A stretch of DNA of 62,849 nucleotides from a virus. The notes under the pieces were generated by a model. It saw only the letters and a program-made list of their open reading frames with translations. It made no database searches and was not told the origin of the DNA. Where the stretch lies: the IMG/VR virus record IMGVR_UViG_3300020451_001669, positions 1 through 62,849 of that record; one strand, 5' to 3'. How positions within the stretch are numbered: the first letter of the stretch is position 1; every line of letters begins with the position of its first letter. A program made the translations under genes and the position numbers. Below, in pieces: positions 3,342-24,774 of this stretch.

Positions 3342-3483
3342 GATTCTAAGTAGTTCGTGTATTCACGCTTATCCTTTATTCGTTCTTCGACATTTTGGCT
3401 GTTTGGGATCAGAGTTGTTCTCAGCAAGTGTATCTGTTTTTCGGTATCATTTCTTCTGGACGCTAACATATGAGTTGTGAAAT

Positions 3484-3906
3484 ATGACACAGATAAAGCG
3501 ATTGAAAACGCAAGCGGCAGACGCAATCGAAGGTATAGACAGCTTGATGAAGTCGTTGAGAGTCTCTCAACAGATGTATCAGGATTCCAGCACTATTTAT
3601 CCTCCCAATCTTGATCGGATGATTGACGAGGTTGGCAGAGACTTTAGTTGCCTCACCCGTCGCTGGCGACTTCTTATCACCCGCCTAGACGACATTGAAA
3701 AGCAAGGCGATTACAACGCAGACATTATGGCTCGTGCCATAGGGGATTTCAGAGACATTCGCATGCTCTATATTCAAGGGCTTGCGAAGGTTGATGAAAT
3801 CCTCTTTGAGTTTCAAGCAATCGACGATGTTGACCGGGCGTTATTCCAAGAGAGTGACTTTCTTGAGGACTTTGGTCCATCGGACGATGAAGAACTCTAT
3901 GAATGA
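3484..3906 (+). CDS. Small helical protein of unknown function
   Basis: 140 aa, largely predicted alpha-helical with heptad-like spacing ([12 protein letters not shown]..., [15 protein letters not shown]) and an acidic C-terminus. It begins an operon with thyA and DHFR: its stop overlaps the thyA start (ATGAATGA). No family is recognised. Its position next to thyA-DHFR suggests expression with the nucleotide-metabolism genes. Confidence 0.7.
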
Positions 3907-4690
3907 CCATCCTGAATATCAGTATCTCGACCTCCTAGAAGACCTGCTCAAAAGCGGAACGCTCAAAGGCGATCGAACTGGAACGGGCACCCATGCCTTA
4001 TTCGGTTATCAGATGAGGTTTGACCTGCAAAAGGGTTTTCCCTTGCTGACAACCAAGAAGTTGCATACTCGCTCAATTTTCCATGAGCTTCTCTGGTTCC
4101 TTAGAGGCGATACGAATGTTCGCTATCTTCAGGAGAACGGCGTAACCATTTGGGATGAATGGGCCGATGAGAACGGCGACCTCGGTCCGGTCTACGGCAA
4201 GCAATGGAGAGATTTCAATGGGGTCGATCAGATTGCAGATGTCATTCATTCGCTGAAGACGAACCCAAACTCAAGGCGTCATATCGTTACTGCCTGGAAC
4301 CCCGTTGAGGTTCCGAGCATGGCTTTGCCTCCTTGCCATTGCCTATTCCAATTCTATGTTGCTGATGGCAAGCTCTCTTGTCAGTTGTATCAAAGAAGCT
4401 GCGATACATTCTTGGGCGTACCTTTCAATATAGCTAGCTATGCGCTGTTGACGCACATGATGGCAAAGGTCTGCGATCTGGATGTTGGAGACTTTGTTTG
4501 GACCGGAGGCGATGTTCATCTTTACCTGAACCATTTTGATCAAGCGAAGACGCAGCTATTGAGAGAGCCTCGACCATTTCCAGCCCTAAAACTTGCTGAC
4601 AGAGAATCGATCAGCGACTTTGAGTACGAAGACATCGAGATTATTGGTTACGATCCTCACCCGAGCATTTCTGCACCTATATCCGTATGA
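3899..4690 (+). CDS. thyA: Thymidylate synthase
   Basis: 263 aa (E. coli ThyA is 264 aa). It makes dTMP from dUMP using methylenetetrahydrofolate. Family signatures are complete: DRTGTGT near the N-terminus, [10 protein letters not shown], the LWFLRGDTN block, catalytic Cys146 in [11 protein letters not shown], then [20 protein letters not shown] and [11 protein letters not shown]. The start at 3899 gives the normal N-terminus; the open frame extends further upstream, but inside the previous gene. Its stop overlaps the DHFR start by four bases, as expected for an enzyme pair that produces and recycles dihydrofolate. Confidence 0.97.
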
Positions 4691-5199
4691 TAAATCTGAT
4701 TGTTGCAACATCTGAGAACGGCTGCATAGGTCGAGACGGACTGCTCCCTTGGAACAAGCAGAAGTCCGACATGAAGAACTTCCGGGCACTAACGCTTGGG
4801 CACCCGGTCATTATGGGGCGAAAGACATACGAGAGCATTCCCTTCGATCTTGACGATCGATATCAGATCGTCTTGACAAGAGCGGGAAGCATTGGTCATG
4901 GGCAGAACTTCTGCGGCCTTGGCAATACTTGTATTGCGACAAATGTTGACGAGGCTCTCAGTATAGCTTCATCGTTTGATGCCGATCCATTTGTTATAGG
5001 CGGCGCTGAGGTTTATAAGCTTTTCCTACCTGTTGCTGATCGTATCTTCAGGACGATCATACATGCAGAGATCGAAGGGGACGCCTTCTTTAATGTTCCA
5101 GAAGGTTGGACTCTAGTAGAGGAAAAGAGACATTCCTCAGATACAAACAATGAGTATGACTACACTTACCAGCTTTTCCAAAGAGTTACAGGGAGCTAA
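4687..5199 (+). CDS. Dihydrofolate reductase
   Basis: 170 aa, type I DHFR (folA/frd type). N-terminal [20 protein letters not shown], the acidic substrate-binding residue Asp28 in the SDMKNFR helix, [12 protein letters not shown] (NADPH-binding) and the [13 protein letters not shown] motif are all present. It regenerates tetrahydrofolate consumed by the adjacent thymidylate synthase. The start overlaps the thyA stop (ATGA), indicating translational coupling. Its last 50 bases overlap the next gene. Confidence 0.95.
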
Positions 5200-5788
5200 T
5201 CTATTCCTTCTCGTTGACCTTGAGGCAACGTGTTGGGAACGCCGTAAGGTGAGAGATAAGAACGAGATCATTGAAATCGGTATTTGCGTCTGCAATACTG
5301 ATGGGGAGATACTTGGTAAGTATCAGTCGTTCATTCGCCCTCGAATCAATCCAAAGCTATCTGGTTTCTGCAAGAAGCTGACTGGTATATCTCAGCAAGA
5401 CATCGATGCTGCCGAGATCCTCTCTGTTGTCATGGCAGATGTCCATGATTGGGCGGAGACTAAGTTTTCCGCGGATTTGAAGACAATCAAATGGGGATCA
5501 TGGGGCAACTGGGATGTCGCTTGCATAGAAAGAGACTGCAATAGGCACAATCTAGACTTTCCTTTTTCAGATCATATCTGCTTGAAAGTTCTTTATGAAG
5601 AGCTTCGAGGCGTCGAATGCGGACTAAAAGAGGCCGTTCGTAGAGAAGGCTTTGAATGGGAAGGGTCTGAGCATCGAGCCCTAGACGATGCTTACAACTC
5701 TCATAAGATTGCCAAGTTGCTTCTTACTGAGCATCCAGACCCGACATCATCTGAACATGATGAACCCCTCGACGGCCAGTCTGATTGA
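5150..5788 (+). CDS. DEDDh-family 3'-5' exonuclease
   Basis: About 212 aa. ERI-1/RNase T-like 3'-5' exonuclease domain with the four acidic residues in order: VDLEAT (Asp23, Glu25), GNWD around residue 124, and HRALDDA near residue 185, giving the DEDDh signature. It lacks polymerase or other domains, so it is a free-standing nuclease acting on RNA or single-stranded DNA ends. The ATG at 5150 overlaps DHFR by 50 bases; ATG 5156 is equally possible. Its 3' end overlaps the convergent lysozyme gene by 65 bases. Confidence 0.88.
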   Translation: MSMTTLTSFSKELQGANLFLLVDLEATCWERRKVRDKNEIIEIGICVCNTDGEILGKYQSFIRPRINPKLSGFCKKLTGISQQDIDAAEILSVVMADVHDWAETKFSADLKTIKWGSWGNWDVACIERDCNRHNLDFPFSDHICLKVLYEELRGVECGLKEAVRREGFEWEGSEHRALDDAYNSHKIAKLLLTEHPDPTSSEHDEPLDGQSD

Positions 5789-6491
5789 ACCACTTCGAGT
5801 CTTGCATTTCTCTCGCAGCATCGCCGTAATCTCTCCGCTTGAGGGCATCAAGAAGCTTGGGAAAGCTCTTGAGTTTTGGCCCTAGGGTATGAGCCATGTC
5901 TGCGATGAGCATCTGAACTTGTTGAGGATGAGAGCCTAGATCGGGTACTGCCGCTACCGCGTCATCGATGGCTCTCTGACTTGTTATCTGAAGCAGTCTT
6001 TCCATTTGCTGATCGCTGAGCCCCTGGGTTCCGTTGTAGACTGCATCGAAGTTTGCTCCGACGCTTTCTATTTCTCCGCGAGAAACAGCGTTACCCAAGT
6101 AATATCCGTATCCCACCGATCTGCTATCTGCATCCGGATATGAGCGAGAGCGCTTACCCTCCCATTGCGCGATGAACGGAGCCAACTGCTCCGCAGAAAT
6201 CAGGCTTGAAGTTTGCTGTTCTTCTTGCGGCTGAGAGGGCGGCTGGGTCTGTTGTTCTTGTTGAACCTGCTGAATAACTTCAGGCGGAGCTTGCTCTACA
6301 ATCTGTTGAGCCCTAGCCGGGTCTGTATTTATGAGGGTTTGAGCCTCTTGAGGCGTTGTCCCTAGTGAATGAACGATGATACCTACAGCAAGTGGGGCTG
6401 CGAGGCCCGCTCCTTGCATAAGTCCCCTGAACGTGCCTGACCAGTCAAAGGCCATCTTTTCTTCCGCTAATAGGGTTCGATACCAATTCAT
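5724..6491 (-). CDS. Phage lysozyme (T4-type, GH24-like) with hydrophobic N-terminus
   Basis: 255 aa from the ATG at 6491; an in-frame GTG at 6509 would add six residues. The C-terminal half is a T4-lysozyme-like muramidase: QWEGKRSRSYPDADSRSVGYG corresponds to the catalytic Glu region and glycine-rich hairpin, and AREMQDSKWFNQTGRR matches the family's conserved C-terminal W-x-NQT-x-R motif. Residues about 20-42 are hydrophobic and may be a membrane or signal-anchor segment. A Gln/Pro-rich linker follows. The gene is monocistronic on the minus strand, convergent with the exonuclease. It could be a lysis endolysin or a virion-associated muramidase. Confidence 0.85.
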   Translation of the reverse strand: MNWYRTLLAEEKMAFDWSGTFRGLMQGAGLAAPLAVGIIVHSLGTTPQEAQTLINTDPARAQQIVEQAPPEVIQQVQQEQQTQPPSQPQEEQQTSSLISAEQLAPFIAQWEGKRSRSYPDADSRSVGYGYYLGNAVSRGEIESVGANFDAVYNGTQGLSDQQMERLLQITSQRAIDDAVAAVPDLGSHPQQVQMLIADMAHTLGPKLKSFPKLLDALKRRDYGDAAREMQDSKWFNQTGRRGVHHVQMMSGLDAQ

Positions 6492-6592
6492 ACCATGTCT
6501 TTCGACCACCTGCTTGAAGATACCTTGCGTGACTGGTCGATAGTTTGAGCTAAGAGGTGGCGATAAAGAGTGAAAGACTAAAGGAGATACCC

Positions 6593-6916
6593 ATGCCCCT
6601 ACCCCAAGAAACGCTGTCTAAACTGAAGGTTCAAGCCCTTGAAACGGCTGACAATATCATGAAGCAAATCCTCGATGCTTATCACAATCCGCAGATAAGC
6701 CTGAGCGGAGAGGCCCTGAAGATATGGAACGAGCTTGAGGAATGGGGCTTTCTGGAGGATTATCCCATTGATGACCCGAATACACACATGATGTATCGTC
6801 GTATGCTAGCGATGAACCAGTTTAGACATCTCAGATGGAACGAAGAGCATCCTCCTTCTGAGAAAAAGAAGATGTCAAAATGGGAAAAGGTTACAGGAAG
6901 AGCCGCTCGCAAATAA
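6593..6916 (+). CDS. Small protein of unknown function
   Basis: 107 aa. The start at 6593 is chosen because AAGGAG lies seven to eight bases upstream; the open frame reaches 6557 but without a ribosome site. The protein is helical, with a basic C-terminus (SKWEKVTGRAARK). No family is recognised. It overlaps the next gene by 37 bases and begins the plus-strand run leading to the sigma factor. Confidence 0.7.
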   Translation: MPLPQETLSKLKVQALETADNIMKQILDAYHNPQISLSGEALKIWNELEEWGFLEDYPIDDPNTHMMYRRMLAMNQFRHLRWNEEHPPSEKKKMSKWEKVTGRAARK

Positions 6917-7125
6917 TACTGCCTCCAATATCATTCTTTGCTGATTTGGGCAAGGAATCATTCCAAATTAGCGAAATGCTTATGAGGCGGCATCTTCCTC
7001 ATGAGTTCGTGTTGACCGATGAGGTTTTTCTGCTCTCTGTCCAAGGCAAGAGAGATTTAGAAGGATTTACTCGGATTCGATCGTACTTGACTAACTACGA
7101 GTACATCTTTGACTCGCGAGGATGA
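6880..7125 (+). CDS. Small protein of unknown function
   Basis: 81 aa, basic at the N-terminus and otherwise mixed alpha/beta. It overlaps the preceding gene by 37 bases and lies three bases before the next. No recognisable domain. It is accepted because it fills the space in a tightly packed operon and uses codons like its neighbours. Confidence 0.5.
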   Translation: MGKGYRKSRSQIILPPISFFADLGKESFQISEMLMRRHLPHEFVLTDEVFLLSVQGKRDLEGFTRIRSYLTNYEYIFDSRG

Positions 7126-7128
7126 AGC

Positions 7129-7470
7129 ATGTTCTGGATATCTGTCATATCAGCCATCGGTATTGCTCTAATACTGGTTGAAAAGAGCGAAGATTGGCCG
7201 ATATCATCCTTCATTCCTCATATAAAAAACACGCTGGCAGTATTTCATGAGAAGCTGCCAGATATGCTGGAATGCACGATATGCACGGCATTCTGGTCTG
7301 CCTTGCTGACGGATTTGTTCTTGTTGGTCGCAACCGGCAGCTATTTTCTATGGCCTTTGACAGGATTTGCAGCAGCAGGACTTGTTTGGGTCACTTACCA
7401 GCTACTAAATGCTTTGGAGGCAAAGGATGTTCAACAGGAAGAACTCGAAGAGTCGGAAGAGAACGCCTAG
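7129..7470 (+). CDS. Small membrane protein, DUF1360-like
   Basis: 113 aa with an N-terminal transmembrane segment (MFWISVISAIGIALILV) and a second hydrophobic region around residues 55-92. The CTICTAFWSALL stretch resembles the C-x2-C-x-GFW core of DUF1360-type phage and bacterial membrane proteins. The C-terminal tail is acidic. Its 3' end overlaps the next membrane-protein gene. Its role is unknown; the lysozyme nearby makes an envelope function plausible. Confidence 0.65.
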   Translation: MFWISVISAIGIALILVEKSEDWPISSFIPHIKNTLAVFHEKLPDMLECTICTAFWSALLTDLFLLVATGSYFLWPLTGFAAAGLVWVTYQLLNALEAKDVQQEELEESEENA

Positions 7471-8488
7471 ACGTTCAATACTCAGTATCATAATGATGGT
7501 AGTCCTTATGGGCGGTTACATGGGTTATGCTATGCATATTCCAGGTTGCTCTTGGGGTTCTGGCGGCAGGCAAGTGGGCGAGCCAGTCGAAACTCCTGAT
7601 CTAACTCAGGAGCGAGATAGCGTTGAAAGAGATGCCGCCACCGTTGGCGAGATAGCGGATTCTGTAGACGAATCTGCGGATGCCATTGACAATGAAACCG
7701 ATGCCGTCCGAGGAGCGGTTGATCCTGACACTGGCTCTGCCATTGAGCCTAACTTGGACAATATCAACAATGAGACTAGGGCTCTCAGAGATGATAGTGC
7801 AGAGCTAAGGAGAGTTCAAAATTCTCTCGAAGAGACAAAGAACGCGCTCTCTGACGAGCAAGGAAAGGTTGATGAGCTAGAATCAGCGGCCAGAACTTCA
7901 TTGGCGGAAATCGAGTCTCTTAAGGACGAAAACGCTGATCTTAGAAGTAAGGCTTCTCAGCTTTTCAAAGAAAAGATGGCCTGGATTGGTGTCATATCGG
8001 TCTTTGGCATAGGAGCGTGTATTATCCTAGCATTCTTGACTCGTAGCATGACAGCGACTCTTATCGCGATAGGTTTTGTCGTCACGCTAGGCGTTTCGAT
8101 AGCGGTTTCCCTCTATATGTCAGCTATCGCATGGATTACTATCGCTATTGCTGGCGTTGCAGTAGTCGGCGTCCTAGGCTATATGGGCTACAATACGTTT
8201 GTTCAGAACAAGTCGGTCGATGAACTTGTCCAAACTGGAGAAGTCACGAAGAACTACCTTTCTCAGGAAGCAAGGGATTACATCTTCGGTAGAGGAGCGG
8301 AGCCCGGCGTTGCCGACCAAGTTCAGTCGAAGGATACTAAGAAGCTGGTGCGTCAGATAAGAAGTTATAATGGCGTCAAGCGGAAGTTCGATCTTGCACC
8401 TCGCGAACCGCAAGCGGCAAGGCTTCCAAGAGTACCTGAAAGTCAAACATACGTTCTAGATCAGGCTCAAGAAGCCCCATCCTACTAA
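7427..8488 (+). CDS. Membrane protein with coiled coil, possible lipoprotein
   Basis: 353 aa; the start at 7427 has GGAGG seven bases upstream. A basic N-terminus precedes a hydrophobic segment (residues about 19-36) ending in IPGC, a weak lipobox. Residues about 60-180 form a Glu/Asp-rich coiled coil (VDESADAIDNE..., EETKNALSDEQGKVDELES). Two or three hydrophobic segments lie at about 185-255, then a basic C-terminal region. No family is recognised. Membrane segments plus a coiled coil near the lysozyme gene recall spanin-like proteins, but the topology does not match a standard spanin. Confidence 0.7.
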   Translation: MFNRKNSKSRKRTPRRSILSIIMMVVLMGGYMGYAMHIPGCSWGSGGRQVGEPVETPDLTQERDSVERDAATVGEIADSVDESADAIDNETDAVRGAVDPDTGSAIEPNLDNINNETRALRDDSAELRRVQNSLEETKNALSDEQGKVDELESAARTSLAEIESLKDENADLRSKASQLFKEKMAWIGVISVFGIGACIILAFLTRSMTATLIAIGFVVTLGVSIAVSLYMSAIAWITIAIAGVAVVGVLGYMGYNTFVQNKSVDELVQTGEVTKNYLSQEARDYIFGRGAEPGVADQVQSKDTKKLVRQIRSYNGVKRKFDLAPREPQAARLPRVPESQTYVLDQAQEAPSY

Positions 8489-8530: not shown

Positions 8531-9355
8531 TTGCAGACGCAGATAGACCAATCAGTAGTGGAGGAGAGGCTGTGGACCGAGTTTGATAAGGTTCGCCATC
8601 TCGCAAAGCAGAGCAAGTCCTATATCAAGGCTCGCAATGATCTCATTGAGCATTACTATGAGATCGTCGAAGGTATAAGCCGTCGCCTTGCTCGCAAGCT
8701 CAAGGAAATCACAGCGGAAGAGATAGCATCCTATGGGGTCGATGGCTTGATAGATGCGATCGAGTCGTTTGATAGAAATCGAGATGTGAAGTTCAAAACC
8801 TGGGCCACGATTCGCATTCGGGGCTCTGTCATTGACAATATTCGCAAGTCGGACTGGGTTCCTCGCCTTGTTCGTCAGAGATATTCAAAGCTCGAAGAGG
8901 TCAAGAACCGTATCGAGTCGGCTCACGGCGGAGCAACCGATCAGGAGGTTGCGAAAGAGCTTGGCATCAGCGTTGAAGAGTATGTTGAACTCGCTCGAAA
9001 ATCAACGCCAATAAGCCAGGTTAGTATGAACGCAAAGCCGAGAGGCGATCGCAGCGATGAATACGATGAACTTGGCGACATTGCTACCGAGGCCGAGACT
9101 ACTTCTCCGGATGACAATCTTCTTCGGGAGGAGATGTATAAGAAGCTATTGGGCAAGAATTTTACCCGGCCAGAGCGTCACATTATCTACCTGCATTACT
9201 ATGAGAACTTGACGATGAAGGAGATCGCTGAGCATACCGGCTTTTCTGAGTCAAGAATCAGTCAGATGCATGCCGATATAATTCGTAGGCTCAAGAAGAA
9301 AGTGGAGCGCAATCCGGCATATGCTGCTGACTTGCAAAGGTTGCTAGAGACATGA
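8531..9355 (+). CDS. RNA polymerase sigma factor, FliA/SigF-WhiG type
   Basis: 274 aa with a TTG start at 8531; AGGAG lies about 10 bases upstream and no ATG is available. Region 2 (GVDGLIDAIESFDRNRDVKF, KTWATIRIRGSVIDNIRKSDWVPR), region 3 (TDQEVAKELGISVEEYVELA) and region 4 helix-turn-helix (LTMKEIAEHTGFSESRISQM) are complete, in the FliA (sigma-28) arrangement. It should direct host RNA polymerase to a subset of phage promoters, most likely middle or late genes. I could not identify its promoter consensus in this window. The stop overlaps the macro-domain start (ATGA). Confidence 0.95.
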   Translation: MQTQIDQSVVEERLWTEFDKVRHLAKQSKSYIKARNDLIEHYYEIVEGISRRLARKLKEITAEEIASYGVDGLIDAIESFDRNRDVKFKTWATIRIRGSVIDNIRKSDWVPRLVRQRYSKLEEVKNRIESAHGGATDQEVAKELGISVEEYVELARKSTPISQVSMNAKPRGDRSDEYDELGDIATEAETTSPDDNLLREEMYKKLLGKNFTRPERHIIYLHYYENLTMKEIAEHTGFSESRISQMHADIIRRLKKKVERNPAYAADLQRLLET

Positions 9356-9915
9356 TCAGATTGCTGATTGGAGACATCACGAAGCTGCGAGACGTTGAAG
9401 TCATTGTCAACGCGGCAAATGGCATTGGCGTTATGGGCGCAGGCGTTGCAGGTGCTATCGCTCGCTCAGGCGGCGAAGCATTCTGCGATGAGGTCCGAGA
9501 GATCGGTCGCAGCCAAGGCCCATTTGCTCCCGGCAGCGTTTATGCGTCGAGTTCTGGCGCGATGAACAAGATGGGCATTCAGGCCGTCTATCACGCCGTG
9601 ACGATGATGTATCCGGGCACGCAGTCATCCATTGATGATGTCGTTCAATCGGTCAGGAACACCTGTAAGCAAGCAATCGAAGACGGACGCAAGTCAATCG
9701 CATTTCCCGGTTTGGGAACAGGAATCGGAGGACTCAATAAGCGTCAGGTCGCTCAAAGAATGGCGACAGTCCTTTTTGAGTATCATTCCCAAATCGATAT
9801 TACTGTAGTAGACATCAACGAAGATTTTGTTCTCCTGGTAAAGGAGGCTCTAGGAGTAAAGCGAGAACCCAATAATGACCTCGAACCTGAACAAGCCAAC
9901 TCTAGTACTGAATAG
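9352..9915 (+). CDS. Macro-domain protein
   Basis: 187 aa. ADP-ribose-binding macro fold: GDITKLRDVEVIVNAANG at the N-terminus, the GVMGAGVAGAIARSGG loop, AVYHAVT and the GLGTGIGGLN phosphate loop. Family members bind ADP-ribose or remove ADP-ribose from proteins and nucleic acids. In a phage it might reverse host ADP-ribosylation, process NAD+-derived products, or bind nucleotide signals; none of these can be chosen from sequence. It is coupled to the sigma factor upstream and overlaps the HNH gene by 41 bases. Confidence 0.92.
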   Translation: MIRLLIGDITKLRDVEVIVNAANGIGVMGAGVAGAIARSGGEAFCDEVREIGRSQGPFAPGSVYASSSGAMNKMGIQAVYHAVTMMYPGTQSSIDDVVQSVRNTCKQAIEDGRKSIAFPGLGTGIGGLNKRQVAQRMATVLFEYHSQIDITVVDINEDFVLLVKEALGVKREPNNDLEPEQANSSTE

Positions 9916-10507
9916 CGGATGGCAGCCGATCACGATTGCCTCTGTTCGTAAGTCTATTGTGAAGGTTTGCACGGGTCTTGGAAACTTCCTAGAGCCAGAA
10001 AGCTACATCCTTCACGACTTCGAGTCCTGGCTGTCCCTGACGGCTGGCGAGGACGAAGACGCAATCGTAGGCTCAAACGGTCTTCGCATGAAAGTGCCGG
10101 AGATCATTGTCTTGAAGTCTTACAGCGCTTTTCCAACCAAGCAGGTCAAGCTTACGAGACGCAACCTGTTGATCAGAGACGGCTTCCGTTGCCAGTACTC
10201 TGGTCAAAAGCTATCGGCTCGCGAAGCCACCATTGACCATATCATTCCTCAATCCCGAGGCGGTCCGCATTCTTGGGAGAACGTTGTCATCTGCGCTGTG
10301 GATGTCAATTCCAAGAAGGCAGACAGAACTCCGGCTGAAGCAGGTATGAGCTTGATCAGCAAGCCAATCCAGCCAAAGTGGAGCCCTGTCTACTCCAAGT
10401 TCTCTCGCGTAACCATGACCGGTAACTACCCGGACTCTTGGAAGCATTTCATCAAGCAAAAAGAGAACTGGTCGCCAGAGGATTATTGGGAAGATGACCG
10501 CAGGTAG
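9875..10507 (+). CDS. HNH-domain protein with reduced zinc ligands
   Basis: 210 aa. The C-terminal half carries an HNH nuclease core: IRDGFRCQYSGQ, then TIDHIIPQSRGGPHSWENVV and VNSKKADRTP. In close relatives the two CxxC pairs bind a structural zinc (CQYCG ... CxxCNxxK). Here the second Cys of each is replaced (CQYS; CAVDVN), so folding must be maintained differently or the nuclease is weakened. The N-terminal 90 residues follow the usual layout of this HNH family (LVLNSGWQPI, RKSIVKV). It is part of the sigma-macro-HNH run, and its arrangement does not look like a recent homing insertion. Confidence 0.85.
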   Translation: MTSNLNKPTLVLNSGWQPITIASVRKSIVKVCTGLGNFLEPESYILHDFESWLSLTAGEDEDAIVGSNGLRMKVPEIIVLKSYSAFPTKQVKLTRRNLLIRDGFRCQYSGQKLSAREATIDHIIPQSRGGPHSWENVVICAVDVNSKKADRTPAEAGMSLISKPIQPKWSPVYSKFSRVTMTGNYPDSWKHFIKQKENWSPEDYWEDDRR

Positions 10508-10512
10508 TTTGT

Positions 10513-11202
10513 ATGGCAATAAAGCGAAAGATCAGATATTCAGCCGTTCGCAATAAGACGAGCGTAAAAGGCTGGAAGGACAAGCTAGAGGGCGTACCAT
10601 GTTTTATACTTGGAAACTCTCCTGCGCTTGAAGATGAGGATCTTGAGCTACTTCATCCCTTCTTTACGATAGGGATAAATAGGGCTTTCTATAAGCTCGA
10701 TACTACCGTTCTGCTTTGGCAAGACATCGAGCTTTGGTATACAGAGAGAAAGCGTCTTATGAAGATGAACTCTCTCAAGGTATGCCGAGATTCTTCTGAT
10801 CCGCAAAATCGCTTTTTCCATTTCAAGCTACAACCAGGCAATTTTGGGCTGCCCGAACATCCGGGCACTCTAAAGGGGACCGGCACGACCGGTCCCCTTG
10901 CCGCGCAGTTTGCATATGCTCTCGGCTGCGATCCAATTGTTTTGCTCGGTATGGACTGCAAGAAAAGAGGACAGAATACAGATTTCTATGGTCGCAACAG
11001 ACACCATAAGCCTCATACACTTTCTAACTGTAAGGGAGGCCTTAAGTGGATCAAGAAAACATTCGACGACCTAGATCGAACAGTTATCAACTGCTCAAAG
11101 GATAATGAGCTATTCGACTACCAACCGCTACAGCAGGTTGTAGAACAAATCGATTCCAAGCATAGCCTCAACAGGGCTCATTGGGTGAGTCGTCTTGCAT
11201 GA
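10513..11202 (+). CDS. DUF115-like Rossmann protein (copy 1)
   Basis: 229 aa. The strand-turn FILGNSPALEDEDLELL followed by FFTIGINRAFY, and LLWQDIELW, match the DUF115/MptE-like family and resemble the GNGPSL motif of GT42 sialyltransferase-like enzymes. A second conserved block, GTGTTGPLAAQFAYALGCD plus VLLGMDC and TDFYGRN, is shared with the next gene. Family members are linked to surface-glycan or pterin chemistry; the reaction here is unknown. It lies five bases after the HNH gene and its stop overlaps the start of its paralogue. Confidence 0.75.
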   Translation: MAIKRKIRYSAVRNKTSVKGWKDKLEGVPCFILGNSPALEDEDLELLHPFFTIGINRAFYKLDTTVLLWQDIELWYTERKRLMKMNSLKVCRDSSDPQNRFFHFKLQPGNFGLPEHPGTLKGTGTTGPLAAQFAYALGCDPIVLLGMDCKKRGQNTDFYGRNRHHKPHTLSNCKGGLKWIKKTFDDLDRTVINCSKDNELFDYQPLQQVVEQIDSKHSLNRAHWVSRLA

Positions 11203-14661: not shown

Positions 14662-17067
14662 ATGTCTCAGACGACTGCTACTCAATCGTCTTCAGTTGAA
14701 GCGCGTAAGCTTACCAGAGATGACACGCTTGCCGCTTTTGGCGGAGACCACCTAGCTACCGATGTATTCCTAAAGAAGTATGCGGTAACTCGAACAGACG
14801 GAACTCTTGAAGAGCACCTGCCAAGTCAGATGTGGAGGCGAATGGCAAAAGCCGCTGCCTCCGTGGAAGATAACCCGGATTATTGGGAAGAGAAGTTCTA
14901 CAACGTCCTAGATGAATGGAAAGCCGTCCCTCAGGGCAGCATTATGTTTGCCCTAGGAAATCCATATCAGCGTTCATCATGCTCGAACTGCTTTGTCGTT
15001 CCCATCCACGAAGATTCCTTGGATGGGATTTTTAACGCGGCGAAGGAAATGGCTAAGACATACGCCTATCGAGGCGGCGTCGGTATTGACATTTCCCCTC
15101 TCCGACCTGACGGAGCCGTAGTTTCCAATGCAGCCAGAACTTCTACTGGCGCATGGAGCTACATGGACTTCTACAGCTACATTACCCGCCTTATTGGTCA
15201 GCACGGTCGTCGCGGTGCTTTGATGCTTACGATTGAAGACAGTCATCCCGATGTCATGAGCTTCATTACGGCGAAGACAGATCTTACAAAGGTGACCGGA
15301 GCGAACATTTCGATCAAGATATCGGATGAGTTCATGCGTTGCCTAGAGAATGATCAGCCTTGGACAATGGAGTTCTCTACGTCGCACGAAACCATTCGCA
15401 AGCAAGTTCCTGCAAGCGAGGTTTGGGATCTCGTCATTAAGTGCGCAACCGAAACAGCAGAGCCGGGCATTCTTTTTTGGGACACTATCCTGAAGGAAAG
15501 TCCGGCTGATTGCTATGCTGAAGATGGTTTTAGGACTATCTGCACCAACCCTTGTTCTGAGATACCTCTGCCTGCATATGATGCTTGCACGCTTCTTTCT
15601 ATGAACCTGACTAAGTATGTCAACGATCGCTTCCTCGATTCCGCGAAGTTTGATTATGACCGCTTTGCTGAGGACGTAGCGACTGCCGTAAGGCTTCTCG
15701 ATAACGTGAAGGAGATCGATTTCGACCTCATGCCATTGCAGGAGCAGAGAGATGTTGCTGCTAAGGGTCGCAGAATCGGCATGGGAACGAACGGTTTGGG
15801 CGACACGCTCGCAGACCTTGGTATCAAGTATGATACTGAGGAGGCCATTGATTTCGTAGACAAGCTCTACGAGTTCTTCGCGAAGACCGTATACGGAGCG
15901 TCCGCGCAACTAGCGGAAGAGAAGGGTCCGTTCCCGATTTTCGACGCGGAGAAGGAAAAGGACAACCCATTCCTCAATCGCATCGGTTTTGCGGGCGTTC
16001 CTCGCCGAAACATCGCTTGTTTGACTTGTGCCCCAACAGGCTCGCTTTCTATGCTTTGCCAGACTTCTTCTGGCGTTGAGCCGGTATTCCGTAATGCTTA
16101 CATTCGTCGTCGTAAGATTAATCACAATGAGGCAGCAGACATTCCTCAGGACAACCAGTACGAGGACGGACTTGGCGATCTTTGGGAAGTCTACGCGGTA
16201 ATCCACCACAACATCAACAACTTTACAAAGGAAGTCCTTGGCGTTGACCTTCTGTCGATGGATAATCACGAGGACAGAAAGGAAGCCTTCGAGGAAATCG
16301 AATATCAGCTACCTGATTACTTCGTAGAATCAGACACGATCGACTGGGAGAAGAGAGTTCGCATTCAGGCAACCATGCAGAAGTGGGTTGACCATGCGAT
16401 TTCTTCTACCTGTAACTTGCCGAAGGGAACTCCGGTTGAGACTGTCAAGAAGGTCTACGAGGCCGCTTACAAGGCTGGCTGTAAGGGATATACCGTCTAT
16501 GTTGACGGATGTCGAGATGGCGTTCTTGTAACCGAGGACGACAGCAACGAGAACCCAAGCAGTATTCAAAAGACCCATGCTCCAAAGAGACCAAAGACTT
16601 TGGATGCAGATGTCTACCATGTCACCAAAGCAGGTCAATCTTACTTCGTTATGGTTGGACTCCTTGAGGGCGAGCCTTATGAGGTCTTCGCGGGCAAGAA
16701 CGGCTTCATGGACCGAAAGGTTAAGACGGCCAAGATATCTAAGGTCAAGAGAGGCCACTACAAGGCAGAGCTTGATAACGGCGAAGTCGTTGATAACATC
16801 GCTGAGCATATCACTGATGAAGAAGCTGCTATTACTCGACTTATGTCGCTATCGCTGCGTCACGGAGCAGATATCAAGTATTGCGTCAATGTTCTTCAGC
16901 GAGTTCCGGGCGATATGAACAACTTTGCCAGAGTCATGTCGAGGGCGATCAAGCACTACATTCCTGACGGAACTGTCAACTCAAGCATGAGCGAGGACGG
17001 TAAGACTTGGATACATGAAGAAGGGTGTCTGCGCTGCCTAGAGACCGGGGAAACCAAGTGTCAATAG
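14662..17067 (+). CDS. nrdJ: Class II (adenosylcobalamin-dependent) ribonucleotide reductase
   Basis: 801 aa. It reduces ribonucleotides to deoxyribonucleotides without a separate radical subunit. Redox and radical residues are visible: Cys107 in SSCSNCF, the NPCSE motif with Cys298 and Glu300, and Cys453/456 in ACLTCAPTGS. The C-terminal swinging tail is EGCLRCLETGETKC (Cys789, 792, 800), which relays electrons to the active site. GGAGG lies eight bases before the ATG. The final 15 codons have a diverged second copy at 18310-18357, with a homing-endonuclease-like gene between them. No nrdA/B is present nearby, as expected for class II. Confidence 0.95.
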   Translation: MSQTTATQSSSVEARKLTRDDTLAAFGGDHLATDVFLKKYAVTRTDGTLEEHLPSQMWRRMAKAAASVEDNPDYWEEKFYNVLDEWKAVPQGSIMFALGNPYQRSSCSNCFVVPIHEDSLDGIFNAAKEMAKTYAYRGGVGIDISPLRPDGAVVSNAARTSTGAWSYMDFYSYITRLIGQHGRRGALMLTIEDSHPDVMSFITAKTDLTKVTGANISIKISDEFMRCLENDQPWTMEFSTSHETIRKQVPASEVWDLVIKCATETAEPGILFWDTILKESPADCYAEDGFRTICTNPCSEIPLPAYDACTLLSMNLTKYVNDRFLDSAKFDYDRFAEDVATAVRLLDNVKEIDFDLMPLQEQRDVAAKGRRIGMGTNGLGDTLADLGIKYDTEEAIDFVDKLYEFFAKTVYGASAQLAEEKGPFPIFDAEKEKDNPFLNRIGFAGVPRRNIACLTCAPTGSLSMLCQTSSGVEPVFRNAYIRRRKINHNEAADIPQDNQYEDGLGDLWEVYAVIHHNINNFTKEVLGVDLLSMDNHEDRKEAFEEIEYQLPDYFVESDTIDWEKRVRIQATMQKWVDHAISSTCNLPKGTPVETVKKVYEAAYKAGCKGYTVYVDGCRDGVLVTEDDSNENPSSIQKTHAPKRPKTLDADVYHVTKAGQSYFVMVGLLEGEPYEVFAGKNGFMDRKVKTAKISKVKRGHYKAELDNGEVVDNIAEHITDEEAAITRLMSLSLRHGADIKYCVNVLQRVPGDMNNFARVMSRAIKHYIPDGTVNSSMSEDGKTWIHEEGCLRCLETGETKCQ

Positions 17068-17097
17068 TTCTACCTGTCTAAAAACATAGAATATATC

Positions 17098-17140
17098 CAA
17101 AACTGTTGGAGGTATTAGGCGTTACTTGACGAATAGTTAG
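17098..17140 (+). other. Hairpin between RNR stop and the inserted endonuclease gene
   Basis: GCGTTAC pairs with GTAACGC (seven perfect pairs, within about 17117-17148) around an approximately 15-base loop, in the 100-base gap before the homing-endonuclease-like ORF. It may hide the ORF's ribosome site (TTGGAG shortly before the ATG) on long transcripts, as some phage homing genes do, or be part of an intron-like fold. I could not recognise a group I intron core. Confidence 0.3.
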
Positions 17141-17167
17141 GTAACGCTTTATACGTTGGAGTAAACT

Positions 17168-18310
17168 ATGTCAAGACGGAAAGAACTATCAGGCAAAAAG
17201 TTTGGAAAGCTGACAGTGAAGCAGGTTTCTGAAAAGCGAGGGCCTAGAGGTGAGCTTTATTGGGACTGCGAGTGCGACTGCGGCAATACAAAAGCGATTC
17301 GCAGTTCTTACCTCAATAAGGGCAAAGTGCAGTGTTGCGGCTGTACTCATAGGGGCAACCTTAAGGGGCAAAGTTTTGGACATTTGATCGTTCTTGAACG
17401 TTCGGAAAAAACAAATTCCCACGGCAATGTTTATTGGACCTGTGAGTGTAAGAGATGCGGAAACCAAAAAGATATTGCTGCCAATGGTTTGAGGTCCGGC
17501 TATCATAAGTCTTGCGGTTGCCTAAAAAAGACCCGAACAAAAGAATCTAGCAAGATGATTCCCGGCCATATTTGGTACTCAATACAAGATAGCGCTAAAC
17601 GGCGCAATATAGATTTTCAACTTTCCCTTCAAGACGCAGAAACTCTACTTACAGAACAGGAGTGGATATGCCCCCTGACTGGATCTGTCCTTGGATTCGA
17701 CTATGCGAATCCCAAAGGGACCAATACTACGGCTTCACTAGACAGAAAAGATTCAACCAAACCATATTGCAAAGACAATTGTTGGTGGATATTAAAAAGC
17801 ATCAATCTTATGAAAGGCTCATTGCCTCTCGATGAGTTTATAGCATTATCTAATTATGTTTCTCAGAAAAAGGAATCAAATATGTTCAAAATAGAACAAA
17901 ATCTATACAATGCTCACAACGCAATTTATTTGACCAAAATCAATAGCAAGAAGTTTGGACTCAGAGTAAGCGATCAAAGTCTTAGAACGACAAGAGGACA
18001 TAAGGGCATTAACTGTCCAGATGGAATTGACTCTGATAAGGCTTATGGCGTAAATCAACTAAGTGGAGACGTTGACTTGATGTTCAAACTAGACATCGAT
18101 CATTATGCAAAAATCAATCTAGATAAAGAGGTTGTCGATAAGGGTTACAGTCTTTATCGAGATAGTCAAATGATTTATCAAAAGCAATATCACATGCCAT
18201 GTATCTATCTTAGACACAAAGACCGTAATCATTCAGTTTTTGAAGACTTAGGATTTTTTGCAGGCAGACATATTGGAACAGTTGACGTGTATCGTTTTTT
18301 CGACGAATAG
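17168..18310 (+). CDS. Homing-endonuclease-like protein with tandem zinc-finger repeats
   Basis: 380 aa. Two tandem repeats at residues about 8-60 and 62-118 share G-x-x-FG-x-L-x-V, YW-x-CEC, CGN and a closing CxC/SCGC, a DNA-binding pattern common in phage homing endonucleases. A nuclease-like domain follows (residues about 130-235): EWICPLTG, TASLDRKDSTKPYCKDNCWW and SINLMKG, an HNH-like arrangement with Asp-Arg in place of Asp-His. The last 130 residues are unrecognised. The gene is visibly more AT-rich than its neighbours and sits between two copies of the RNR tail, so it is very probably mobile. Confidence 0.82.
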   Translation: MSRRKELSGKKFGKLTVKQVSEKRGPRGELYWDCECDCGNTKAIRSSYLNKGKVQCCGCTHRGNLKGQSFGHLIVLERSEKTNSHGNVYWTCECKRCGNQKDIAANGLRSGYHKSCGCLKKTRTKESSKMIPGHIWYSIQDSAKRRNIDFQLSLQDAETLLTEQEWICPLTGSVLGFDYANPKGTNTTASLDRKDSTKPYCKDNCWWILKSINLMKGSLPLDEFIALSNYVSQKKESNMFKIEQNLYNAHNAIYLTKINSKKFGLRVSDQSLRTTRGHKGINCPDGIDSDKAYGVNQLSGDVDLMFKLDIDHYAKINLDKEVVDKGYSLYRDSQMIYQKQYHMPCIYLRHKDRNHSVFEDLGFFAGRHIGTVDVYRFFDE

Positions 18311-18357
18311 AAGGCTGCGTCCGATGCCTGGAGACTGGTGAAACTAAGTGCATGTAA
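18310..18357 (+). pseudogene. Displaced second copy of the RNR C-terminal tail
   Basis: In frame from 18310 the sequence reads EGCVRCLETGETKCM then TAA. It matches the last 15 residues of the RNR upstream (EGCLRCLETGETKCQ) at 13 positions, while the DNA matches at only about 34 of 48 bases, mostly third-position changes. No start codon or upstream homology exists, so it is not translated alone. It is probably the original 3' end of the RNR gene, pushed downstream when the endonuclease element inserted with its own recoded tail. If an intron is spliced out, it could instead be a real second exon. Confidence 0.85.
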
Positions 18358-18395
18358 GAGCCCGATTCTCATAACATCCGATATAGTTCAAAGAG

Positions 18396-18425
18396 CGCCC
18401 TTTGACGACTCATTGGGCGTTTTTT
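18396..18425 (+). terminator. Rho-independent terminator
   Basis: CGCCC (18396-18400) pairs with GGGCG (18415-18419) around a 14-base loop, followed by six T. It lies 38 bases after the displaced RNR tail, consistent with being the original terminator of the RNR gene. Confidence 0.7.
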
Positions 18426-21173: not shown

Positions 21174-21757
21174 TGTCTAATCTAGAGAACGTAACGCCAG
21201 CAGATAGCTATCCTGATCTGTTTCGCCTTGTAAATGGCGGGGCGGGCCTCGATGCAACGCTAAGAAATATTACCGGAGGAGATGGAACTCCGACCGGCAT
21301 CTTTATCTCAAGCACAGTTGTTCAGGCCGATATGAACGATGGAGTCCTCCGCCGCCCTCTTATGAGAGACGCTCGGAAGCTTTATCTCAATCTAGGCGAC
21401 GTATCAACCATCGATGGAGGTTCAGGTACGGTAGACCTTGACCTAGAAGCGGCAGATGTATTTAGGGTTGGAGTCGATCAGAACTTGACGACTCTGAATC
21501 TCGATAATGCGGTTGCTGGCGTTGATGCGACTGACGGTAGAATGAAGGAAATACTGCTTGTTCTTGACCAAAAGGGAACTAGCGGAGGCGGCTATTTTAC
21601 TGTCTCTTGGCCTAGCAGTATCAACTGGGACGCTTCGGCTCTTCCGGTTTTGAGCGAAGTTGACAACTCAACTGATGTCTTTAGGCTTATCTATTTGAAC
21701 GATGGCAGCGATCTATGGTTTGGCGAGATCGTTGGACAGAACATGGGTACGCCGTAA
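21173..21757 (+). CDS. Fibre-like structural protein
   Basis: 194 aa, rich in Gly, Asp and Thr, with beta-strand repeats. The pattern TLNLDNAVAG ... KEILLVLDQKGTSGGG ... WPSSINWD ... DVFRLIYLNDGSDLWFGEI is typical of receptor-binding or fibre-associated domains in phage tails. It has no coiled coil, so it may be an adaptor or a short fibre. It overlaps the neighbours by one base on both sides (TAATG), directly before the terminase. Confidence 0.65.
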   Translation: MSNLENVTPADSYPDLFRLVNGGAGLDATLRNITGGDGTPTGIFISSTVVQADMNDGVLRRPLMRDARKLYLNLGDVSTIDGGSGTVDLDLEAADVFRVGVDQNLTTLNLDNAVAGVDATDGRMKEILLVLDQKGTSGGGYFTVSWPSSINWDASALPVLSEVDNSTDVFRLIYLNDGSDLWFGEIVGQNMGTP

Positions 21758-24700
21758 TGCCTCCTAAGAAGAAAAAGAATGGAGAACTCAGCGACATAAT
21801 CAAAGACCTCAAGAATGAGGTCAGGGCCAGCAATATGCTCAAACAGTTTGGAGCGGGTCTGCCTAGTATTATTGAGTTCGTTGAGCAAGAAAGATGGCTT
21901 GGAATGAGTCACTATCCCCAGCCGGTCATTCTCCGACCGATGCAGCGGATACTTCTCAAGTGCTTTTATCGAGGTAGCCCCGGTAATGAAAACTTGCAGT
22001 TAGATCCTGAAGAGATCGAGCTAATCAAGAAGCATGGTCTTACTGAAGAAGAAAACGGCGACGTACTAAACAAGTGGAACAATGAGACTACTTTTAGAGA
22101 GCTAGTCCTCGTATGGGGTCGCCGTTGCCTTTCCGAAGACGCAACCATCGTTGATCCGGATACTGGTATGCGATGGAGAATCGGCGATCTTTGGGACTAC
22201 GGTAAGACAAATATGTCTTCTTGGACTTACAACGAACAGTCTAAGAAGATGATGAAAATAAAAGACTGCAATCTCATTAGCCAAGGCGTCAGAGATGTGT
22301 ATGAGGTAGAGCTTGCGAGCGGTCATAGAACCGAAGCTACAGACAATCATCCCTTTTTGACTAAGGATGGATGGAAGCAGGTAAAGGAGATCAGAGCCGG
22401 AGAGAAGATAGCTCTGTCTCCAAGCATGCCTTTCTTTGGGCAGTCCAGTCAGTTGGGAACAAGCCAGGCTGCTTTGCTGGGCTACCTAAGTAGCTCGAAG
22501 ATGTCTAAGATCAACAATATGCTTGTTGTTAGCAGGGTTGCCTCTGATATCGAGGCAGACTTCAAGGACCAGATTGCCAATTCCTTTGAGAATGCGGATG
22601 TCAAGTCTCCGTCCGGAAAAACACAATCGATGGCTTTCTTTGACCATGCAAGCTCGGTCAAGGACTGCAAGGATATCCGAACTCTAAAGGACTGCAAAAG
22701 CATTCATCAGCTAGCTCACATGTCAGGGCTTCTAAACAAGTCAGCAGATGAGAAGCATGTTCCCGTCAGGCTTATGAGGTCTAGCAAGCAATGCGTTTCT
22801 GCATATCTGAGCAGGCTTTTCAGCGTGGAAAGCGAACTGACATACAGCAAAAAGTCCGGAAGAGTCTACGCTAAGATCGAATGCAACTTCGAGAGCCAGT
22901 CTCTTGCCGAATCTGTTCACCACTTGCTTCATAGATTCGGAATCTTTTCTACCGCGAAGTATAATCGCAAGATCGAGGGCAAGACTCGACATACTATTAC
23001 GATTAGCAAGCTAGCTGACATCAAGTTATTCTTGAGAGATATCGGATACGTTGACCGCGGCGAAGAAGTTTCTGAGCTTCTATCTTTGTTGTCTCATGTA
23101 GACATCGATGAAAAAATCGAGTATGTATCTCTGCAGTCAAAGCGAAAGATTGGCAAGAAGAGGACTTTCGATCTCCAGGTTTCCCATGAAGAGCATAAGC
23201 AAAACTTCGTAGCTGACGGCTTTATAGCTCACAACAGCGGTAAGGACTTCATCGTATCGATCATGGCTCTTTACGAGGCGATGCGTCTATTGGAGACTCC
23301 GGGCGGTAATCCGTATACGACTTACAATCTTAGCTCTGCTGCTCCGATGACCATTCTCACTATCGCTAACGCCGCTCCTCAGGCAAAGATTCTCTTCCGA
23401 GAGGTAAGAGACAAGGTGAACAGGTCTCCCTACTTCCAAGACAAAGTAGGGCACATGACCGATGATATGATTTATCTTCTTACTCCTCATGACAAGGACA
23501 GTAATAAGAAGCTGAAAGAAAGAGGGCTCGACGGAACAAGAGGTTCTGTTCAGATCAAGGCCGGTCACTCTAACTCGAACTCTCTCGTTGGTCTTTCTTG
23601 TTTCGCGGTTATGTTTGACGAGATTGGTACTTACAAGATTACCGCAGGTTCGTCTTCAGGCGATCAGCTATATCATAACCTTGTTCCGGCTACTATGACA
23701 TATGTTCGCAAGGAACCTGTGCTAAAACCTGACGGAACTCCGGAGCTAGACGAAAACGGAAACGAAAAGTTTAATAGGGTACTTGACGGCAAGGTCATAT
23801 GTATTTCGACCCCTCGTGGCAAGGACGGTATTTTTTACGATCTCTATTCAAACGCAAACGAAGTTCCTCATAGATTCATGATGCGAGCCCCTACTTGGGC
23901 TGTTCATCCTGATCTAAGCGAGGCTGACCTGCTCAAGGGTAACCCTGACATGGGCGATTCAAAATTTGCAATGGAGTTCGGAGCAGAGTTCCTTGGCACA
24001 GCAGGCGAATCTTTCTTTAGTTCAGATGATGTTGACGCATGTTTCCGTTCCAAGAACATCAAGAAGGTTATGCATGGTCTGCCAGGCGTTACATATTTTG
24101 CTCACCTAGACCCTGCTACGTCAAGTCACAACTATGCTCTATGTATTTGCCATCAAGAGATGTTTGTTGACAGTAAAACTGGTAAGAGAGATTTCCGCAT
24201 CATAGTAGACCACTTGCATCATTGGACTCCAACTGGAGATAATCCGATTATGGTCGAAGAGGTCGATAAGTACATGATCGAGATGCACAAGAGATTCCAT
24301 TTTGGCCTTGTTACCTATGATCAGTGGAATAGCAAGAACAGTATCAACAATCTAAGAAAGCACGGTGTTCCTGCCAAGGAGACGGCCTTCTCCAAGCAAT
24401 ACAAGCAGCAGATATACGACAACCTTTACCAGTTGGCTATCAACAAGAAGATTTTGATACCAGAATACAAGCTGTTATACCATGAAATGAAGAATCTGCA
24501 AAGGAAATGGACGGAAAGCGGCTATAAGGTAATGGCTAAGAAGGATGCCGATATCGATACAGACGACATGTGCGATGCGTTGGCAGGAGCCTGTTATAAC
24601 GCTATCGAAAGAGGAGTTAGCAGACTTCCACAAGGAAAAATGGTCAATATGCCAGTATCACCAAACGGAAACTCTCAGGTCTGGAGATCGATGCAGGGCA

Positions 24701-24774
24701 CTCCGTATGGCTACGGCTCAGGTCAACAAGTGGCAAACAATATGAGAAATCGCTCGGGCTTCAGATCAGTCTAG
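21757..24774 (+). CDS. Terminase large subunit, interrupted by an intein
   Basis: 1005 aa precursor; removal of a 370-aa intein leaves 635 aa. It is the ATPase-nuclease motor that packages DNA into proheads. The Walker A loop is split: VWGRR before the intein and SGKDF after it, giving GRRSGKD when joined. Walker B is FAVMFDEIG. The RNase H-like nuclease has acidic motifs in AHLDPATSSHNYAL, VTYDQWNS and DTDDMCDAL. Translation starts at 21757 (TAATG) rather than the longer frame at 21715. The C-terminal 50 residues are Gly/Asn-rich. No small terminase subunit was recognised nearby. Confidence 0.95.
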   Translation: MPPKKKKNGELSDIIKDLKNEVRASNMLKQFGAGLPSIIEFVEQERWLGMSHYPQPVILRPMQRILLKCFYRGSPGNENLQLDPEEIELIKKHGLTEEENGDVLNKWNNETTFRELVLVWGRRCLSEDATIVDPDTGMRWRIGDLWDYGKTNMSSWTYNEQSKKMMKIKDCNLISQGVRDVYEVELASGHRTEATDNHPFLTKDGWKQVKEIRAGEKIALSPSMPFFGQSSQLGTSQAALLGYLSSSKMSKINNMLVVSRVASDIEADFKDQIANSFENADVKSPSGKTQSMAFFDHASSVKDCKDIRTLKDCKSIHQLAHMSGLLNKSADEKHVPVRLMRSSKQCVSAYLSRLFSVESELTYSKKSGRVYAKIECNFESQSLAESVHHLLHRFGIFSTAKYNRKIEGKTRHTITISKLADIKLFLRDIGYVDRGEEVSELLSLLSHVDIDEKIEYVSLQSKRKIGKKRTFDLQVSHEEHKQNFVADGFIAHNSGKDFIVSIMALYEAMRLLETPGGNPYTTYNLSSAAPMTILTIANAAPQAKILFREVRDKVNRSPYFQDKVGHMTDDMIYLLTPHDKDSNKKLKERGLDGTRGSVQIKAGHSNSNSLVGLSCFAVMFDEIGTYKITAGSSSGDQLYHNLVPATMTYVRKEPVLKPDGTPELDENGNEKFNRVLDGKVICISTPRGKDGIFYDLYSNANEVPHRFMMRAPTWAVHPDLSEADLLKGNPDMGDSKFAMEFGAEFLGTAGESFFSSDDVDACFRSKNIKKVMHGLPGVTYFAHLDPATSSHNYALCICHQEMFVDSKTGKRDFRIIVDHLHHWTPTGDNPIMVEEVDKYMIEMHKRFHFGLVTYDQWNSKNSINNLRKHGVPAKETAFSKQYKQQIYDNLYQLAINKKILIPEYKLLYHEMKNLQRKWTESGYKVMAKKDADIDTDDMCDALAGACYNAIERGVSRLPQGKMVNMPVSPNGNSQVWRSMQGTPYGYGSGQQVANNMRNRSGFRSV
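22126..23235 (+). mobile_element. Intein in the terminase P-loop with degenerate LAGLIDADG domain
   Basis: In-frame 370-aa insertion. Splicing motifs are intact: Cys1 with block A (CLSEDATIVDPDTG), block B (TEATDNHPF), block F (RTFDLQVSHEEH), and the end VADGFIAHN followed by Ser+1 of the extein. Between them is a region the size of a LAGLIDADG endonuclease, but the two helix motifs read LLGYLSSSKMS and YLSRLFSVES, so the catalytic acidic residues are missing. The intein probably still splices but can no longer home by cutting. Its position inside Walker A makes packaging fully dependent on splicing. Confidence 0.93.

Follow-up and report, generated by a model that had tools for sequence, protein, structure and literature searches.

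Mobile endonuclease open reading frames (ORFs) that bring a foreign C-terminus to the gene they invade are known from fungal mitochondria, where they have been described in atp6 of Allomyces, in atp6, atp9, cox2 and nad3 of Glomus, in atp9 of Rhizopus and in cox2 of Mortierella (PMC3630166). The two copies of the Glomus atp6 C-terminus are 63.5% identical in nucleotides and 91% in amino acids, and in atp9 the endonuclease ORF stands between an inserted end of 51 nucleotides and a native end of 52 nucleotides that starts directly behind the ORF (PMC3630166). We describe here a locus of this type in a 62,849-nucleotide stretch of viral DNA (IMG/VR record IMGVR_UViG_3300020451_001669, positions 1 to 62,849; the whole stretch is referred to as the window), in which the C-terminal tail of a class II ribonucleotide reductase (RNR) gene is present on both sides of an HNH homing endonuclease gene (HEG). 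As in the fungal elements, an endonuclease has entered an essential gene close to its 3' terminus, with a divergent in-frame C-terminus brought in and the native one displaced; the fungal cases, however, are mitochondrial, use LAGLIDADG or GIY-YIG nucleases and occupy respiratory genes. Here the element type is seen in tailed phages; its nuclease is an HNH enzyme and its host gene a class II RNR, and displaced tails occur in two distant phage groups. An earlier note made from the letters of the window had proposed such a replacement with the fungal elements as precedent, and the published cases bear out that parallel. Comparison of sequences makes it very probable that a free-standing HNH homing endonuclease element inserts in the last codons of phage class II RNR genes, bringing a recoded tail and displacing the native one.

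Free-standing homing endonucleases are usually considered to be protected from themselves by insertion into their own site or by sequence differences in the neighboring gene, and in engineered home-and-rescue designs the rescue copy is recoded for resistance to the nuclease. The HomeR and Cleave-and-Rescue drives resemble the phage element in directing a nuclease against an essential gene while supplying a rescue copy (PMC7968924, PMC7951863), but they are engineered and use Cas9, whereas the phage element is natural, protein-only and 0.6-1.3 kb in size. HEGs are common next to phage RNR genes (PMC2988022, PMC10448857). The T4-type mobE, which follows nrdA (and in Aeh1 lies within it), is likewise an HNH gene beside or in the gene of a phage RNR large subunit, and shares regulated expression, with an RNA hairpin in the Aeh1 case; a replacement C-terminus is not described for it, however, and in Aeh1 the split nrdA gives two separate polypeptides that are functional (PMC2988022). 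A search of open-access papers gave no phage HEG that carries a recoded end of its host gene, although most subscription papers lie outside that search and this absence is thus not proof.

The doubled RNR tail of the window

The window RNR gene (14662-17067; all features given here are on the + strand) is the host gene of the element and encodes an 801-amino acid class II (B12-dependent) enzyme, of the NrdJ type by sequence according to both Pfam (PF02867, E 2e-96) and NCBIfam (TIGR02504, NrdJ_Z, over the cut-off) profiles. Its ORF ends with the residues HEEGCLRCLETGETKCQ and a stop codon. The segment translated as the end of the enzyme, tail 1 (17020-17067; EGCLRCLETGETKCQ and stop), recurs as tail 2 (18310-18357; EGCVRCLETGETKCM and stop; DNA GAA GGC TGC ... 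ATG TAA), which overlaps the stop codon of the HNH gene by one base, its first; the native end of fungal atp9 also begins directly behind the endonuclease ORF. The two tails are identical at 34 of 48 nucleotides and 13 of 15 amino acids, and the coordinates and counts reported in the earlier note are correct. Differences at codon positions 1, 2 and 3 number 2, 1 and 11 (n=14; Fisher p=4.7e-5), and with the stop codon excluded there are 13 differences where 14.1 are expected from a random draw of genome-usage codons; the divergence is almost all synonymous, with third positions near saturation and the protein kept.

This repeat is not a chance similarity. When the 3 kb behind each of 94 distinct RNR genes are scanned, the window copy reaches 0.83 of the self-score and is the best among 4309 ORF tails tested over all loci, whereas no second tail copy was found at the 93 other RNR loci (scores of at most 0.30, with a reversed-sequence control at 0.27); endonuclease-free relatives with both tails are thus absent from this set. 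Because no start codon occurs between tail 2 and the nearest upstream in-frame stop, tail 2 is probably untranslated.

Codon usage, expressed as a z value standardized for amino acids over 15-codon stretches, distinguishes the two copies. Tail 1, at z -3.53, is the most atypical of 787 RNR stretches and the lowest among 44 gene ends of the window, and genome-wide only 2 of 1177 stretches are as low; it uses GGG twice, a codon that accounts for 2% of the glycine codons of the window RNR. Tail 2 is native-like (z +0.71). The codon usage, together with analogy to the cases described below, supports a foreign or recoded origin of the upstream tail, with the downstream tail as the displaced original. 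A terminator-like hairpin followed by a T run is predicted by folding 3' of tail 2 (18390-18425), and a HEG-less relative, L002, has one behind its only tail, in agreement with tail 2 as the gene's native end; a promoter and terminator scan was uninformative.

The earlier note regarded this segment as the essential redox tail of the enzyme, which is plausible, although the window carries a degenerate version of it. Nearly all relatives compared have the full C-terminal CxxC..GCxxCxxCGxxxC zinc-ribbon, but two parts of it are missing from the window RNR (region 16990-17067), namely the first CxxC and, in GCxxCxxCG, the third Cys; the loss of the third Cys, in the second zinc-ribbon part, is common to both window tails. 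The rest of the protein is clearly NrdJ, so the tail is divergent and the family membership stands.

Near-isogenic crAss-like phages with and without the element

HNH homologues of the window endonuclease family lie directly 3' of RNR in the cultured phages PhiCrAssBcn14, 15, 16 and 18. When the HEG-containing Bcn14 and Bcn18 are compared with the HEG-less PhiCrAssBcn1, Bcn20 and crAss001, a precise insert of 576 bp is apparent. Over 300 nucleotides of upstream flank the HEG-containing phages are 100% identical to both Bcn1 and Bcn20, and over 900 nucleotides downstream the identity is 100% with Bcn1 and 99.9% with Bcn20, with crAss001 differing downstream; the HNH element is thus precisely present or absent between near-isogenic phages, and may be mobile to HEG-less alleles. 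The RNR end at the empty site, GATTGTGG-GTATAGTAAATGTTTATAA, translates to GYSKCL and a stop. With the HEG present it becomes GATTGTGG-CTACTCAAGGTGCAATTAA (GYSRCN and a stop), followed by a 22-nucleotide spacer without a hairpin, the HNH gene, and then GTGGCTGG-GTATAGTAAATGTTTATAA, such that the displaced native GYSKCL and its stop form the in-frame C-terminus of the HNH protein. Of its 21 bases, the recoded tail has 10 in common with the native one, and the change of Ser from AGT to TCA requires all three codon positions to be substituted. With identical flanks on both sides, this tail can only have arrived with the element. The same recoded tail is present in all four HEG-containing crAss records and in no other record; a search for its donor found none, and a viral-contig scan with the crAss HNH as query gave no matches. 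The paper describing the crAss isolates notes variable endonucleases, and the portion of it considered here does not mention a recoded-tail insertion (PMC10354031).

At the level of sequence comparison, these phages establish that the element was inserted, that the recoded tail came in together with the HEG, that the native tail was displaced and that the RNR reading frame is complete. The proposal of the earlier note, that a foreign recoded C-terminus replaces the RNR end and leaves the original displaced, is supported both by codon usage in the window and by these near-isogenic pairs, in which the native type can be identified outright. Insertion-free relatives of the window phage have a single tail: both L002 (RNR identity 69%) and L034 (68%) have one zinc-ribbon tail followed by dUTPase, with no endonuclease. 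Three features of the fungal mitochondrial type are represented, namely an upstream C-terminus in the host-gene frame with divergent DNA, a native C-terminus downstream, and single-tail relatives with an empty site.

Two further crAss-like records have other alleles of the RNR end. L189 has another HNH gene (41% identical) directly 3' of RNR, with a GWSRC-type tail. PhiCrAssBcn17 (L184, 4830-4962), which has no HEG, has an RNR end near-identical to that of Bcn1 until the last ~100 nucleotides, where it switches to the L189 type (41-43 of 45 positions match L189, 27 of 45 match Bcn1); this resembles a co-conversion tract or the footprint of HEG loss, and may represent an immune allele.

In PhiCrAssBcn14 the RNR region has group-I-like matches at positions 3948-4040 and 5001-5035, and beside such matches a gene labelled 'DNA polymerase III gamma/tau' (L171, 3258-4375) lies between two RNR pieces and is probably an intron ORF. 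In cr111_1 (L176, 5420-7317) a relative of the HNH gene lies between two thyX pieces.

Mechanism and alternative explanations

Ahead of its endonuclease gene the element has a synonymously different RNR tail, stop codon included, and a spacer, which in three cases folds into a strong hairpin. After insertion, the RNR frame reads into the element's own tail to give a full-length enzyme, and the native tail stays behind the endonuclease, probably untranslated. The nuclease would then nick or cut the RNR tails of HEG-less phages, repair would copy the element into the cut site, and the recoded tail, lacking the target, would render the new host immune. By supplying an important host gene with a new end, such an element would make insertion into a coding sequence tolerable without an intron or intein, and would be a natural counterpart of the engineered home-and-rescue drives; it also implies that phage RNR ends can be acquired horizontally, independent of the gene body. 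The cultured crAss-like set in Bacteroides intestinalis (Bcn14, 15, 16 and 18 with the HEG, Bcn1 and Bcn20 without) makes cleavage, homing and immunity directly testable.

Several observations weigh against this interpretation or limit it. The targeting and cutting of the native tail by the nuclease, homing, immunity by recoding and continued RNR function are inferred from sequence. The window has no near-isogenic empty site, its nearest relatives being about 70% identical, so the direction of insertion there rests on codon usage and analogy. RNR tails are slightly atypical in codon usage on average (mean -0.8, sd 1.3 across 96 RNRs), the tail of the HEG-less L083 is as extreme as tail 1, such that atypical tails are not confined to HEG-containing genomes, and the tail of the HEG-containing L001 is not strongly atypical. 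The L001 contig stops within the HEG, and the region behind it is absent from that record; in L026 a displaced tail was searched for behind the HEG and none remains. Nor was a displaced tail found at the other HEGs tested (L172, L174-L176, L178-L180, L114, L124 and L138-L140).

Of the alternatives, that of a group I or group II intron survives best, yet we consider it improbable. Splicing would join the RNR codons before 17020 to tail 2, with tail 1 as an unspliced alternative end, which would account for purifying selection on both tails; HEGs frequently reside in introns, and a U followed by a G 1290 nucleotides downstream permits an in-frame junction (17012/18302). However, covariance-model searches of the window with RF00028 and RF00029 gave no match at E<=10, although with RF00028 each of the three introns of T4 is recovered (E 2e-29 to 1e-8), so that a group I catalytic core is not detected in the element and the group I intron that the earlier note had offered as the rival explanation is disfavored. 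Moreover, the endonuclease stop overlaps the putative 3' exon, leaving only about 100 nucleotides non-coding; the crAss homologue has no junction-consistent register with both a 5' U and a terminal G, and gives no intron match at the HNH insert despite the group-I-like matches elsewhere in its RNR region; and L026 lacks a second exon as splice target. An Rfam cmscan of the window region also found nothing, but was discarded as evidence, because td of T4, a known intron, escaped detection in that mode as well.

Slightly less probable still is that the RNR tail was first duplicated locally, with the endonuclease landing between the copies later and the copies diverging in place. The derived LETGETKC motif, common to both window tails and absent from every relative compared, speaks for such a history, but third positions are near saturation with the protein kept although tail 2 is untranslated, and in the crAss case, where filled and empty sites have identical flanks, a tail sharing only 10 of 21 bases cannot have diverged in place, contradicting this explanation there. 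(A pattern search for LETGETKC in viral contigs gave two matches, L028 and L029, judged to be chance.) Least probable is that both tails are used, through frameshifting at T_TTT_TTC or other recoding that either fuses the endonuclease to the tail or gives the RNR a different end. The slippery-like heptamer shortly ahead of tail 2 and the crAss fusion, in which the HNH is in frame with the displaced tail, speak for this; against it, six-T runs are common by chance, tail 2 has no start codon, and the crAss fusion seems a by-product of the junction that adds six residues only.

Returning to insertion of an element with its own recoded tail, we lean towards a broader view in which this phage HNH family has repeatedly colonized the 3' ends of class II RNR genes (those of the window, L001, the jumbo phage L026, the crAss-like Bcn14 group and L189), with recoded ends where this is testable. 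Its members would act as natural 'home-and-rescue' drives that cut the essential-gene ends of competitors while their own host gene remains working and immune.

The endonuclease gene and related loci

The window endonuclease (17168-18310) is a 380-amino acid HNH homing-type protein (phrog_374, E 9e-39) that also matches phrog_1035 and phrog_3322, the families being HNH and endonuclease VII; a Pfam search gave no match. It consists of two CxCxxCG-type modules (residues about 1-120), an HNH domain (about 130-235) and a C-terminal extension (about 238-380). An AlphaFold model is confident within residues 1-235 only, and its closest solved structure is the HNH enzyme PacI (E 0.004); for residues 238-380 there is no confident model, and a search for relatives found none. 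We note a possible internal start for the C-terminal 143 amino acids (17879-18307), with AAGGA ahead of the ATG at 17882. In codon usage the endonuclease is the most atypical gene in the window (z -6.4). A strong hairpin (17112-17154, folding z -4.7) lies between the tail 1 stop and the endonuclease ribosome-binding site, and hairpins of different sequence occur at the equivalent site in L001 (z -4.5) and L026 (z -4.9). The T_TTT_TTC run occupies the last codons of the gene (18295-18301), and with either one additional T or a -1 slip the endonuclease would read on into tail 2, in the way that the crAss HNH continues into its own displaced tail; the frame offset may stem from a recent indel or from a homopolymer error in sequencing.

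Among the relatives of the window phage, L001 (RNR identity 71%) has a 51%-identical endonuclease directly 3' of its RNR tail. This tail is 71% identical to that of L002, against 86% overall, a weak signal of co-conversion that is only suggestive because a variable loop diverges equally. The L001 endonuclease has no ATG, GTG or TTG start (7455-7520) but an ATA at normal spacing behind AGGAGG, which may mean either an inactivated gene or a rare start codon. In L026, a 548-kb jumbo-phage contig, the order is RNR, endonuclease (36% identical), one more gene and dUTPase; its RNR tail is GC-rich (0.62 versus 0.35) and the most codon-atypical of 96.

The HEG-less relatives contain apparent mobile elements and interruptions of other kinds. 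The L002 RNR is a single 1570-amino acid ORF (3462-8174) with two apparent inteins, which indicates that the RNR of this phage group has been struck by several kinds of mobile element. Downstream of its dUTPase (8760-10961), a TnpB-like ORF (9171-10370) seemingly lies within a LAGLIDADG-like homing endonuclease gene. The dUTPase ORF of L034 is broken by an in-frame TAA (9730-10209). Elsewhere in the window, the large terminase gene (21715-24774) apparently contains an intein, with a HINT-like start of the insert and an end at VADGFIAHN.

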